Assembly (NCBI RefSeq): GCF_001983995.1
Contig: NZ_CP019450.1
Coordinates: 434,001-498,000 of the forward strand
Length of the DNA: 64,000 bases
Reading direction: 5' to 3'
Origin: Halioglobus japonicus
GTDB lineage: Bacteria; Pseudomonadota; Gammaproteobacteria; Pseudomonadales; Halieaceae
Shown: positions 17,893 through 20,119 of the stretch, in pieces
How the letters are laid out: every line of letters starts with the position of its first letter
How positions within the stretch are numbered: the first letter of the stretch is position 1
Made by a program: the position numbers and the translations under genes
Notes under the pieces: model-generated
What the model saw: the letters and a program-made list of their open reading frames with translations, nothing else
What the model was told of the DNA's origin: nothing
Databases searched by the model: none

Positions 17893-18961
17893 TCACGGTC
17901 ACCGGCACCTGCTTGCCGCGAACCTCAACTGCCAGGGCTGTACCCGGCTCTCCCAGGTCGCGCTCAATAAACGCCATGGCAATGGGGCCACCGTAGCTGG
18001 CGCCAAAGGCTGCAGAGCAGACCTCTCCCACCTTATGACCGCTCTGATCGACCACCGGCTGACCTTCTCGAACGGGTCGCTTGCCGTCAACAGCCAGGCC
18101 AACCCGACGCAACGCCGGCTTGTTTTGCATACAATCGAAAATCACATCCGCACCCGGAAAGCCTCCGGGGCGCGCGCCATCAGGGCGACGCACCTTGCTG
18201 ATAGACCACAGCAGGCCCGCCTGAACAGGATCGATCTCGGTGCTGAGTTCATGGCCGTACAGGCACAACCCCGCTTCCAAGCGCAGTGAATCCCGGGCGC
18301 CAAGTCCAATCGGCTCAACCTGGGTAAACGCCAATAGGCGACGAGCCAGAACATCGGCTGCCGCTGCGGGGACTGAAATTTCGAATCCATCCTCGCCGGT
18401 ATAACCGGAGCAGGTGATGTAGACCTCGACCCCATCGATTTGCGCGCGACAACCTTGCATGAACACCAGCTCCGCAGCGGCCGGACATAGCTCAGCCATG
18501 ACTTCGCGAGCGGCAGGTCCCTGCAGTGCCAACAGGGCCTGGTCAGTCAGCACTTCCAGCGTCTGACCGGCAAGATGCGCCTGTAGGTGCTCGATATCCT
18601 GCGCCTTGCAGGCAGCATTGACCACCAGGAAGAACCGGTCTTCGGCCCAGCGGGTAATAATCAAATCGTCGAGCACGCCGCCCTGCTCATTGGTAAACAG
18701 CGCGTAGGTCTGGCCGTCGACCGCCAGCCCTTCAATATCCACCGGCACCAGGGACTCGAGCATCGCAGCTGTTCCAGCGCCCGTGATAATCACCTGCCCC
18801 ATATGCGAGACATCAAACAGTCCAGCCGCAGCCCGGGTATGCAAATGCTCCTTGATGATGCCGGAGGGATACTGCACGGGCATATCATAGCCAGCAAAAG
18901 GCACCATCTTGGCACCGAGTTCGCGGTGCAATCCATCCAGGGGTGTGGTCAGCAGGCTCAT
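17852..18961 (-). CDS. gcvT: Glycine cleavage system T protein (aminomethyltransferase)
   Basis: 369 aa, ATG at 18961. Opening 'TTPLDGLHRELGAKMVPFAGYDMPVQYPSG' and 'AGLFDVSHMGQVIITG' are diagnostic; 'GYTGEDGFEISVP' and 'GLGARDSLRLEAGLCLYGHEL' follow. It transfers the methylene group from the H-protein-bound intermediate to tetrahydrofolate. gcvH and gcvP are not adjacent within this window, and the downstream neighbour (batD) is convergent, so gcvT is on its own transcript here. No glycine riboswitch is recognisable in the 130-nt upstream gap. Confidence 0.95.
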   Translation of the reverse strand: MSLLTTPLDGLHRELGAKMVPFAGYDMPVQYPSGIIKEHLHTRAAAGLFDVSHMGQVIITGAGTAAMLESLVPVDIEGLAVDGQTYALFTNEQGGVLDDLIITRWAEDRFFLVVNAACKAQDIEHLQAHLAGQTLEVLTDQALLALQGPAAREVMAELCPAAAELVFMQGCRAQIDGVEVYITCSGYTGEDGFEISVPAAAADVLARRLLAFTQVEPIGLGARDSLRLEAGLCLYGHELSTEIDPVQAGLLWSISKVRRPDGARPGGFPGADVIFDCMQNKPALRRVGLAVDGKRPVREGQPVVDQSGHKVGEVCSAAFGASYGGPIAMAFIERDLGEPGTALAVEVRGKQVPVTVTKMPFCPQRYHRG

Positions 18962-19093: not shown

Positions 19094-19603
19094 GTGTACA
19101 AATTCAATACCGTCAATCTGATTGGCATGCCCGGTGCGGGCAAAAGTACCGTTGGCGTGATTCTGGCCAAGCAAACCGGCCTGCGCTTTGTCGACACCGA
19201 TCTCGACATCCAGGTCCGCGAGAACGCCACGCTGCAGGAAATCGTCGACAGCGAGGGTTATCTGCGCCTGCGCGAGATCGAGCACGATGTGCTCATGGAA
19301 CTGGACCTGGACCACGCGCTGATATCTACAGGTGGCAGCGTGGTCTACAGCGAAGATGCCATGGCGCGCCTCGCCGCCGCCGGTCCCATTGTCTATCTGC
19401 AGGCCGACCTGGCAACGCTGGAAGCGCGGGTGGCTGCCGCGCCACCGCGGGGCATTGCCAGTGACAGCGACGACGGGTTCGCCGGTGTCTATGCGGAGCG
19501 GACCCCGCTTTACGAGCGCTACAGCGACATCACGATCAACGCCACCGCGGGGACGGCAGATCAGGTGGCCGCCGCCATTCTCGCGCAGCTGGAACAGCTG
19601 TAG
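19094..19603 (+). CDS. Shikimate kinase-like P-loop kinase
   Basis: 169 aa, GTG start. Walker A 'LIGMPGAGKSTVGVILAK', then 'FVDTDLDIQVRENATLQEIVDSEGYLRLREIE' and 'ALISTGGSVVYSEDAM' match shikimate kinase. The lid region differs from AroK: instead of the usual RPLL it has 'PPRGIASDSDDGFAGVYAERTPLYERYSD'. It may be a true shikimate kinase variant or a relative with another substrate. It lies divergent from gcvT with 132 nt between. Confidence 0.8.
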   Translation: MYKFNTVNLIGMPGAGKSTVGVILAKQTGLRFVDTDLDIQVRENATLQEIVDSEGYLRLREIEHDVLMELDLDHALISTGGSVVYSEDAMARLAAAGPIVYLQADLATLEARVAAAPPRGIASDSDDGFAGVYAERTPLYERYSDITINATAGTADQVAAAILAQLEQL

Positions 19604-19604
19604 T

Positions 19605-19619
19605 GGACATGTCCGGACA
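19605..19619. promoter_or_regulatory. Two overlapping 10-bp palindromes upstream of the sigma-54 promoter
   Basis: GGACATGTCC (19605-19614) and TGTCCGGACA (19610-19619) overlap by five bases, about 43-57 nt upstream of the -24 element. They could be part of a binding site for an enhancer-binding protein, although such sites usually lie further upstream. The role is inferred from position only. Confidence 0.35.
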
Positions 19620-19661
19620 GCACCTGGAGCCCACTATCCTTCGATTTACCGAGTCTGCCGC

Positions 19662-19677
19662 TGGCACGGCCTTTGCA
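19662..19677 (+). promoter_or_regulatory. Sigma-54 (RpoN) promoter
   Basis: TGGCACGGCCTTTGCA fits the -24/-12 consensus TGGCACG-N4-TTGCW exactly, with a C before the TGG as preferred. Transcription should start near 19688. No gene starts within 200 nt downstream; instead a strongly folded region begins at 19684. Seen directly in the sequence; activity is inferred. Confidence 0.75.
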
Positions 19678-19683
19678 AATTAA

Positions 19684-19783
19684 CTGTCGAGGCGGCCCGC
19701 ATCTCTGCACTAATGGGCACCCGGCGACAAGGACGTCAACGGAGCGCAGAGAACACCATGGAGGGTGGCGGGCCGCCCGACAG
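19684..19783 (+). ncRNA. Candidate structured small RNA with GGA-loop hairpins
   Basis: Directly behind the sigma-54 promoter. Outer stem: 19684-19700 pairs with 19768-19783 (16 bp with a single bulged A). Inner stem: TCTCTGC (19702-19708) with GCAGAGA (19746-19752). Side hairpin CACC-ATGGAG-GGTG (19754-19767) and hairpin GAC-AAGGAC-GTC (19726-19737) each expose an A-N-GGA motif in the loop; a third ACGGA lies at 19740-19743. Such loops are what CsrA/RsmA proteins bind in RsmY/Z/CsrB sponges. No convincing open frame. The 3' end is unknown: a weak GCAAAAA/TTTTTTGC pairing follows at 19790-19825. It could alternatively be the 5' leader of the gene at 19898. Confidence 0.5.
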
Positions 19784-19876
19784 CTACCGGCAAAAAGTTA
19801 GTATTCCCAACGTCGATATTTTTTGCTTAACTCCGCCTTGAGGCATGCTTAAACGAGCTGGCCCTTGGTTTTTGTG

Positions 19877-19898
19877 TAAATCATCGGGAGGTGATTTA
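19877..19898 (+). promoter_or_regulatory. Hairpin presenting the Shine-Dalgarno in its loop
   Basis: TAAATCA (19877-19883) pairs perfectly with TGATTTA (19892-19898); the loop TCGGGAGG holds the ribosome site of the gene at 19898, and the stem includes the A of its ATG. A GGA in a hairpin loop over the ribosome site is the classical CsrA/RsmA repression geometry. It could also be a temperature-sensitive stem. Confidence 0.5.
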
Positions 19899-20119
19899 TG
19901 GGAGAGCGCAACCAGGAACCGAATACTTCGGAACCCCTGGAGGATATGTTCGAACCCGGCCTGGGCGACATGTCCGACGAGGACCTGGCCGAACTGGCCC
20001 CGCTGGCCTCGGACAAGCAACGCCTGGCGGAGAAACGCCGCCGCGCTGAGCAACGTCTGGAAGAGAAACGCCTGCGGGACGAGTTAGGTTACTACGATCT
20101 GGAGCTGGACGACTTCTAG
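19898..20119 (+). CDS. Small PA3496-family protein
   Basis: 73 aa with GGGAGGTG eight bases before the ATG. Highly charged: an acidic N-terminal half (EPGLGDMSDEDLAELAPL) and a helical, Arg/Glu-rich C-terminal half (RRRAEQRLEEKRLRDELGYYDLELDDF). This resembles the short PA3496-type proteins tentatively linked to the envelope; no enzymatic motif. Its ribosome site sits in a hairpin loop and a sigma-54 promoter plus folded RNA lie 220 nt upstream, so post-transcriptional control is plausible. Confidence 0.65.
   Translation: MGERNQEPNTSEPLEDMFEPGLGDMSDEDLAELAPLASDKQRLAEKRRRAEQRLEEKRLRDELGYYDLELDDF

Follow-up and report, generated by a model that had tools for sequence, protein, structure and literature searches.

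A predicted sigma-54-dependent RNA of the Csr/Rsm antagonist kind, conserved with its promoter in the Halieaceae

The window (the whole 64,000-nucleotide stretch of Halioglobus japonicus DNA that was analyzed) contains, between a gene of the shikimate-kinase fold and a gene of the PA3496 family, a sigma-54 promoter element followed by a predicted structured RNA. The features of this region, all on the forward strand, are as follows.

19094..19603, + strand: upstream gene, shikimate-kinase fold, perhaps a homoserine kinase (Pfam SKI, 108.6 bits)
19605..19619, + strand: three half-sites, GGACATGTCCGGACA, a candidate enhancer and part of a conserved upstream array
19662..19677, + strand: sigma-54 promoter TGGCACGGCCTTTGCA, with -24 TGGCAC and -12 TTGC, consensus at the key positions
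19684..19700, + strand: 5' arm of the closing helix P1, whose first bases probably precede +1
19687..19783 (about), + strand: predicted sRNA, its start placed from the promoter, ~12 nt past the -12 GC
19702..19752, + strand: helix P2, TCTCTGC / GCAGAGA, enclosing the hairpin region
19726..19737, + strand: hairpin H2, GAC[AAGGAC]GTC, a CsrA-type hexaloop with conserved pairing
19739..19743, + strand: ACGGA, the third ANGGA motif
19754..19767, + strand: hairpin H3, CACC[ATGGAG]GGTG, a CsrA-type hexaloop
19768..19783, + strand: 3' arm of P1, from the fold and covariation
19823..19833, + strand: TTGCTTAACTC, a conserved element, possibly the PA3496 gene's own promoter
19898..20119, + strand: downstream gene of the PA3496 family, 73 aa (NCBIfam NF046101, 45.9 bits, cut-off 22)

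The best-scoring NCBIfam model for the upstream protein is a homoserine kinase (hom_kin_desulfo), at 167.5 bits and under the cut-off of 197. A gene of this fold lies upstream of the RNA in 29 of the 40 loci compared below. A distant, separate homologue of the protein encoded at 19094-19603 is present elsewhere in the same genome.

The preliminary description of this DNA placed a sigma-54 promoter, matching the consensus at the key positions, at 19662-19677, with no gene for more than 200 nt. The element lies where it was claimed, and the PA3496-family gene begins at 19898, 221 nt past the promoter. The strict sigma-54 pattern occurs once in the 64-kb window, against 0.32 expected, and 28 of 100 shuffles also contain one match; with up to one mismatch, three matches are found versus 3.35 expected. 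Chance can account for a single strict match in a stretch of this size, and the promoter was therefore dropped as sole proof, so that the case rests on comparison with relatives.

In the window copy, P1 comprises 16 pairs with one bulged A (19684-19700 with 19768-19783), and P2 is a 7-bp stem (19702-19708 with 19746-19752). Both stems, as well as the two hairpins with A-N-GGA loops, are present at the positions first reported for them. The fold of 19688-19783 has a z score of -5.35, with 0 of 200 shuffles equally stable, and that of 19684-19840 a z score of -4.04, with 1 of 200. The copy carries three ANGGA motifs and two ANGGAN hexaloop hairpins; shuffles contain 0.63 ANGGA on average, and 1.6% of them reach three. 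The GAC/GTC hairpin (H2) is absent from the minimum-energy fold when this sequence is folded singly, and its predicted presence in the window copy draws on the comparison with relatives only. H1 is not recognizable in this copy, which is one of the weaker members of the family.

A DNA search of 58 genomes, including the window's own, matched just one other genome, and relatives were therefore sought through the flanking kinase gene. Thirty loci were fetched by this upstream gene (shikimate-kinase fold), and a sigma-54 element lies 3' of it in 25 of them, window included; 24 of these were picked up by a pattern search, which missed the one at L007. The RNA could be excised from 22 loci, its core starting 25-27 nt past the T of the -24 element. 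Fourteen of these 22 RNAs, excluding the window and its nearest relative, gave a clean alignment with invariant CA.GGA.G and ACA.GGA.G blocks, from which a covariance model (R1) was built that contains neither the window nor the promoter. Applied to the held-out window, R1 matches 19689-19779 with 46.5 bits (E 1.8e-7), and the opposite strand weakly, with 15.7 bits. Among 16 kinase loci outside the training set, five matched strongly, three weakly (20-23 bits) and eight not at all.

The distribution of the RNA is confined to one family in the genomes sampled. When up to the best 30 candidates per genome were scored, R1 matched 46 of 140 Halieaceae genomes, once each, and gave no match in the other 94; among the 78 good-quality Halieaceae genomes, 37 match. 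All eight members of the window's genus have the RNA. In a sample of 390 genomes from the order (best 11 candidates per genome scored), nine match, all in the window's family. Eighty named kinase-gene loci yielded five strong matches (Pseudohalioglobus sediminis, Haliea alexandrii, a Halioglobus MAG, a Haliea MAG and a Halieaceae MAG) and one weak match (Sediminihaliea albiluteola), all in the Halieaceae or its genera; three loci labeled Halieaceae, L180 (Parahaliea maris), L193 and L197, gave no match. Three loci kept outside the alignments (L017, L019 and L026) show sigma-54 elements and GGA hairpins by eye and differ in the rest; L008, L010 and L023 stand outside alignments A2 and A5.

The spacing between promoter and RNA is nearly constant. 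At 33 of the 46 R1-positive loci the promoter was examined, and a sigma-54 element was found 25-28 nt 5' of the start of the RNA model in 32; the 33rd (G010) reads CGGCAC. Twenty-one of these loci come from genomes that had not earlier been picked by promoter, and the element is present in all 21. One mark of a sigma-54-dependent gene, a -24 GG and a -12 GC at a conserved position, is thus found at 32 of 33 loci. Another, the presence of enhancer-binding-protein sites upstream, is provided by the predicted half-site array described below.

The family shares the architecture P1(P2(H1 H2) - AGGGA - H3). In the alignment of 14 sequences, 86.8% of cells pair, with a covariation of 0.309 versus 0.035-0.073 for slid controls; in that of 40 sequences (39 distinct), the values are 85.5% and 0.310 versus 0.046-0.097. 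P1, H2 and H3 are strong, with 92-97% of cells paired in the 40 sequences (96.5% for H2), and H1 (73%) and P2 (66%) pair less consistently. Of five covariation measures, one does not stand out clearly from shuffles: the count of pairs changed on both sides is reached by 61 of 500 with 40 sequences and by 37 of 500 with 14. For the remaining four, no more than 5 of 500 shuffles do so. Run on a plain MAFFT alignment, RNAalifold recovered P1, H2 and H3, with compensatory changes in 9 of 17 pairs, and found neither P2 nor H1. It had been asked at the outset whether the stems and the TGGCAC/TTGC elements are kept in relatives: the stems covary, and the promoter distance is constant. This conservation in relatives confirms, at the level of sequence, that the pairing of promoter and structured RNA is not due to chance.

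The loops carry motifs of the kind expected for CsrA binding. The 40 RNAs together contain 142 ANGGA motifs, whereas dinucleotide shuffles give 22 (maximum 37); for ANGGAN hexaloops with three closing pairs, the count is 99 against 0.9 (maximum 5). G3, G4 and A5 of the loop are retained in 38-40 of the 40 sequences for each of the three hairpins, and the figures for A1 are 39, 39 and 33; one further ANGGA site lies outside any hairpin. The motif ACANGGANGT is present in 38 of the 40 RNAs and ACARGGAYGT in 26, the ACARGGAUGU core being the in vitro selected consensus of CsrA. The ANGGAN hexaloops lend support to the Rsm-type reading of the preliminary description.

A search for csrA in the window's genome (G000) identified two CsrA homologues, with PF02599 matches above the cut-off. 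The second, divergent csrA (Pfam 52 bits; L091, G000 C1:1720134 onward) has a sigma-54 element of its own and is transcribed away from a GAF/PAS sigma-54 activator (L068), with a photolyase-like frame next (by eye). With E. coli UvrY as the query (E 1e-15), the best matches in G000, G001 and G033 have 24-34% identity, and G012 has none. UvrY/GacA orthologues are usually far closer than this, and these four genomes therefore seem to lack the Gac regulator. Activation by GacA/UvrY through an upstream TGTAAG-N6-CTTACA box is usual for Csr/Rsm antagonist RNAs, without being strictly defining; near the RNA, no such box was found with up to three mismatches, the nearest match lying at 18541-18558.

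We propose that the locus probably encodes a single-copy, trans-acting Csr/Rsm antagonist RNA under sigma-54. The basis for this proposal is a conserved promoter, a conserved and covarying structure, the enrichment of the motif and the presence of csrA. From these we infer transcription, CsrA binding and sequestration, as well as the identity of an activator. Sigma-54 RNA polymerase would start at about 19687, triggered by an enhancer-binding protein on the TGTCCG/CGGACA array 40-100 nt 5' of the -24 element. The RNA would fold as P1(P2(H1 H2) - AGGGA - H3), its GC-rich closing helix enclosing as many as three hexaloop hairpins together with a single-stranded site, all of which display A-N-GGA. 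These sites would bind and titrate CsrA, thereby freeing its target mRNAs. Several observations were counted against this reading: no terminator is conserved, the spacing to the PA3496 gene is nearly constant, the window copy is weak, 94 of 140 genomes are R1-negative, 11 of the 16 kinase loci outside the training set match weakly or not at all, and one covariation measure is close to shuffles.

Two of these observations bear on a different reading, in which sigma-54 transcription continues into the PA3496-family gene, making the RNA its 5' leader, and hairpin-bound CsrA, or some other protein, controls translation or stability in cis. We consider this unlikely. The gene lies on the same strand, 3' of the RNA, in 39 of 40 loci, and 110-152 nt past P1 in 38; a free sRNA needs no such near-constant distance. 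At L022, the sole locus without a PA3496 match, a start resembling that of the gene is visible, making it a weak counter-case to the leader. A U-tract follows P1 in 8 of 40 loci versus a background of 10%, and a strong hairpin, with a core shared by 35 of 40 loci, encloses the Shine-Dalgarno sequence of the PA3496 gene. Conversely, 35 of 40 loci have an element of the TTGATTTACTC type, TTG(A/C)TT(T/A)ACTC or a shorter form, in the interval from RNA to gene, where it is most simply the gene's own promoter, and the GGA sites belong to a closed domain that ends more than 100 nt before the PA3496 start codon. A leader function thus keeps a small probability because of the near-constant distance and the missing conserved terminator. 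In the window, the Shine-Dalgarno sequence sits inside a near-perfect hairpin, TAAATCATC-GGGA-GGTGATTTA (19877-19898; z -4.59 for the fold of 19868-19915), which is possibly a thermosensor or a protein site.

It is highly improbable that the hexaloops are bound, as in nitrate-assimilation leaders, by an ANTAR-domain protein instead of CsrA. The defining residues of ANTAR hexaloops, A1 and G4, are both present, and the Rfam narK RNA (RF03032) gives matches of 21.3 bits in the window and 22.7 bits at L013. These matches are below the gathering threshold (43.2) and cover the promoter and one hairpin only. In all three loops, G3 and A5 are conserved at least as well as A1 and G4, and the extra ANGGA site is not in a hairpin. 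The joint conservation of G3, G4 and A5 with A1 is therefore better explained by CsrA than by an ANTAR protein. Hardly credible is a structure acting as DNA, or as an element without a trans role (a cruciform or an attenuator), in which ANGGA is incidental: P1 is indeed long and GC-rich and the model scores weakly on the other strand, but the strand asymmetry (46.5 versus 15.7 bits), the ~100-fold excess of ANGGAN hairpins over shuffles and the fixed distance of the promoter from the RNA all argue against it.

If the RNA is a sigma-54-dependent CsrA antagonist, as we favor, an enhancer-binding protein would be expected to act upstream. In 41 upstream regions, TGTCC/GGACA half-sites occur 86 times versus 16 in mononucleotide shuffles (maximum 29), counts that are not independent because the regions are related. 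At least one half-site is present in 36 of the 41 regions, five having none, and 73 of the 86 fall at -100 to -40 relative to the -24 element. With a slightly wider half-site, 26 pairs of same-strand neighbors have a spacing of exactly 10 bp; inverted pairs are mostly on the same 10-bp grid (4, 14 or 6, 16 bp). The window's genome contains 34 strict sigma-54 sites, of which 30 were read; two or more TGTCCG/CGGACA half-sites accompany the RNA's own site and none of the 29 others.

The identity of the activator was approached by elimination. The preliminary description had suggested a link to nitrogen or carbon status, which finds no support here, as the upstream half-sites differ from CbrB-type and NtrC sites. 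The NtrC site is different from TGTCCG/CGGACA, and the CrcZ-like promoter of this genome carries GTTAC/GTAAC (by eye), which is also unlike it; for this reason neither NtrC nor CbrB is favored. A LuxO-like protein has no match (E 1e-110) in five of the eight genus members, all RNA-positive, nor in other RNA-positive genomes, and matches in genera without an R1 hit. Adjoining the LuxO-like gene of the window's genome (L073, G000 C1:1937398) is an apparent degenerate second copy of part of it. PilR was checked at 11 pilin-like loci from seven genomes of the genus, seven of them with a major-pilin-like gene. TGACA-N5-TGTCA is present at all seven major-pilin-like loci (L112-L118; four exact, three one base off), where it is likely the PilR site, and is not found at the other four; a single CGGACA/TGTCCG occurs at 1 of the 11. 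These sites were counted moderately against PilR. PrsR, considered on account of the PEP-CTERM literature (PMC9850573), was dropped for the window's genome, the three response regulators scanned being under the model cut-off.

About nine sigma-54 activators are encoded in the window's genome, two of them separated only by eye and gene order. In the RNA-positive genome G012, only five score above 100 bits: orthologues of NtrC, CbrB and PilR, an FHA-like bEBP, and a fifth protein to which nothing in G000 corresponds. The FHA-like bEBP is 44% identical to a G000 protein with Fis-type HTHs at its end. Its gene directly precedes that of a protein kinase (Pfam Pkinase, 124 bits in G000 and 136 in G012). 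In G000 the bEBP and kinase genes follow ampE and split ampD-like frames; in G012 they follow an amidase frame. Frames are split or shortened in the window's genome at L071/L072 (RtcR-like), L063 (NtrC-like) and L176 9300-9994 (AmpD-like), through sequencing errors or real breaks.

A search for this candidate bEBP gave scores of at least 360 bits in 54 of the 140 genomes. The RNA occurs in 42 of these 54 and in only 4 of the other 86. The corresponding Fisher value of 3e-20 is not evidence by itself, since shared ancestry can yield such co-occurrence. There are also genomes that act as counter-examples. In G020 (98% complete), the RNA and the upstream half-sites are present, but a search at E 1e-60 gave no match to the candidate. 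The five other activator loci fetched from that genome, its PspF-like locus aside, include no orthologue of the candidate. G153 and G155 likewise lack a match, and G160 has a weaker one. Twelve genomes are bEBP-positive and R1-negative, three of them with a divergent RNA by eye (L008, L010 and L019). Because of these counter-examples, we name the kinase-adjacent bEBP as the likeliest candidate only: by elimination and co-occurrence, the activator is most likely the bEBP encoded beside the Ser/Thr kinase. For its putative FHA domain there was no Pfam FHA match in eight proteins at E up to 5, a PDB search with the protein returned no FHA chain, and the N-terminus offers conserved GR and SR motifs only. 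A second HTH appears as two HTH_8 stretches in 8 of 8 proteins at E up to 5, and as one stretch in G000 at 0.001.

A broader scheme can be put forward tentatively, as a possibility about which we have more doubt than confidence. In the Halieaceae, a Ser/Thr kinase and an FHA-like sigma-54 activator with tandem Fis-type HTHs, their genes side by side 3' of one for an ampD-like amidase, may replace BarA/GacS-UvrY/GacA as the input to Csr, acting via the helically phased TGTCCG array, with a cell-wall or phosphothreonine signal setting CsrA activity. Searches of the open-access literature listed no report of the Halieaceae RNA, and none of a kinase input other than Gac. The authors of PMC5568370 state that, as of 2017, GacA/S was present in every species whose RsmA-regulating sRNAs had been validated experimentally. 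If true, the present reading would mean that the Csr input can be replaced while the RNA output is kept, as a sigma-54-driven RNA with no recognizable GacA. It would also provide a small circuit, amenable to testing, from marine bacteria, and add an RNA family not found in Rfam 15.

Comparison with known systems suggests that the best reading is an RNA of the Csr/Rsm antagonist kind that is new to Rfam. No Rfam 15 family matches the RNA at its gathering threshold. CsrB, CsrC, RsmX, RsmY and RsmZ give nothing in the window at that threshold, nothing in 19600-19900 at E up to 10, and nothing in eight relatives at E up to 5. The narK RNA (RF03032) has a comparable -24/-12-like start and a GAC hairpin (GAC[AAAGAC]GUC in narK). 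The first 15-16 positions of RF03032 read like a sigma-54 -24/-12 element, so part of that motif may be promoter DNA. The locus matches narK below threshold, its closing helix is outside the match, and narK has no GGA in the loop, as far as the consensus part shows.

The sigma-54 RNAs CrcZ (CbrB) and Qrr (LuxO) each depend on a dedicated enhancer-binding protein, and the Halieaceae RNA would share this general scheme. CrcZ titrates Hfq/Crc by CA motifs and the Qrr RNAs pair with mRNA, whereas the GGA hexaloops set the present RNA apart; unlike in the Qrr setting, the LuxO-like protein does not co-occur with it. The window's genome seems to encode a separate CrcZ-like RNA, at L064 507-820 on the minus strand (about G000 C1:1236589-1236902), between CbrB-like and pcnB-like genes (by eye). 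It has a sigma-54 element, TGGCACAGCAACTGCA, with GTTAC/GTAAC upstream and AANAANAA motifs, and scores 19.3 bits against Rfam CrcZ (E 0.027, gathering 95).

Pseudomonas syringae, which has a Gac system, offers another parallel. A machine-learning study predicted RsmA-regulating sRNAs with sigma-54/RpoN-like upstream sites in this species (PMC5568370), and RpoN-driven RsmA antagonists are therefore already in print as a prediction. Like the Halieaceae RNA, the P. syringae sRNAs are predicted to bind RsmA and have, at a conserved upstream position, a site similar to the sigma-54 consensus. They are several related predictions in one species, whereas the Halieaceae RNA occurs once per genome, with an enhancer array and with covariation across the family; the contrast concerns these features. 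In P. stutzeri, a further report describes higher rsmZ in an rpoN mutant (PMC8249394), which is of opposite sign to our reading of the Halieaceae RNA.

A further comparison is with CsrB/CsrC and RsmX/Y/Z themselves. Unlike these, the Halieaceae RNA has a sigma-54 promoter and an enhancer array in place of the GacA box, one long closing helix with no clear terminator, and apparently no GacA/UvrY orthologue in the four genomes searched. Like them, it is predicted to be short and intergenic, its genome encodes csrA, and its several hexaloop hairpins with A-N-GGA would likewise be expected to titrate CsrA/RsmA.
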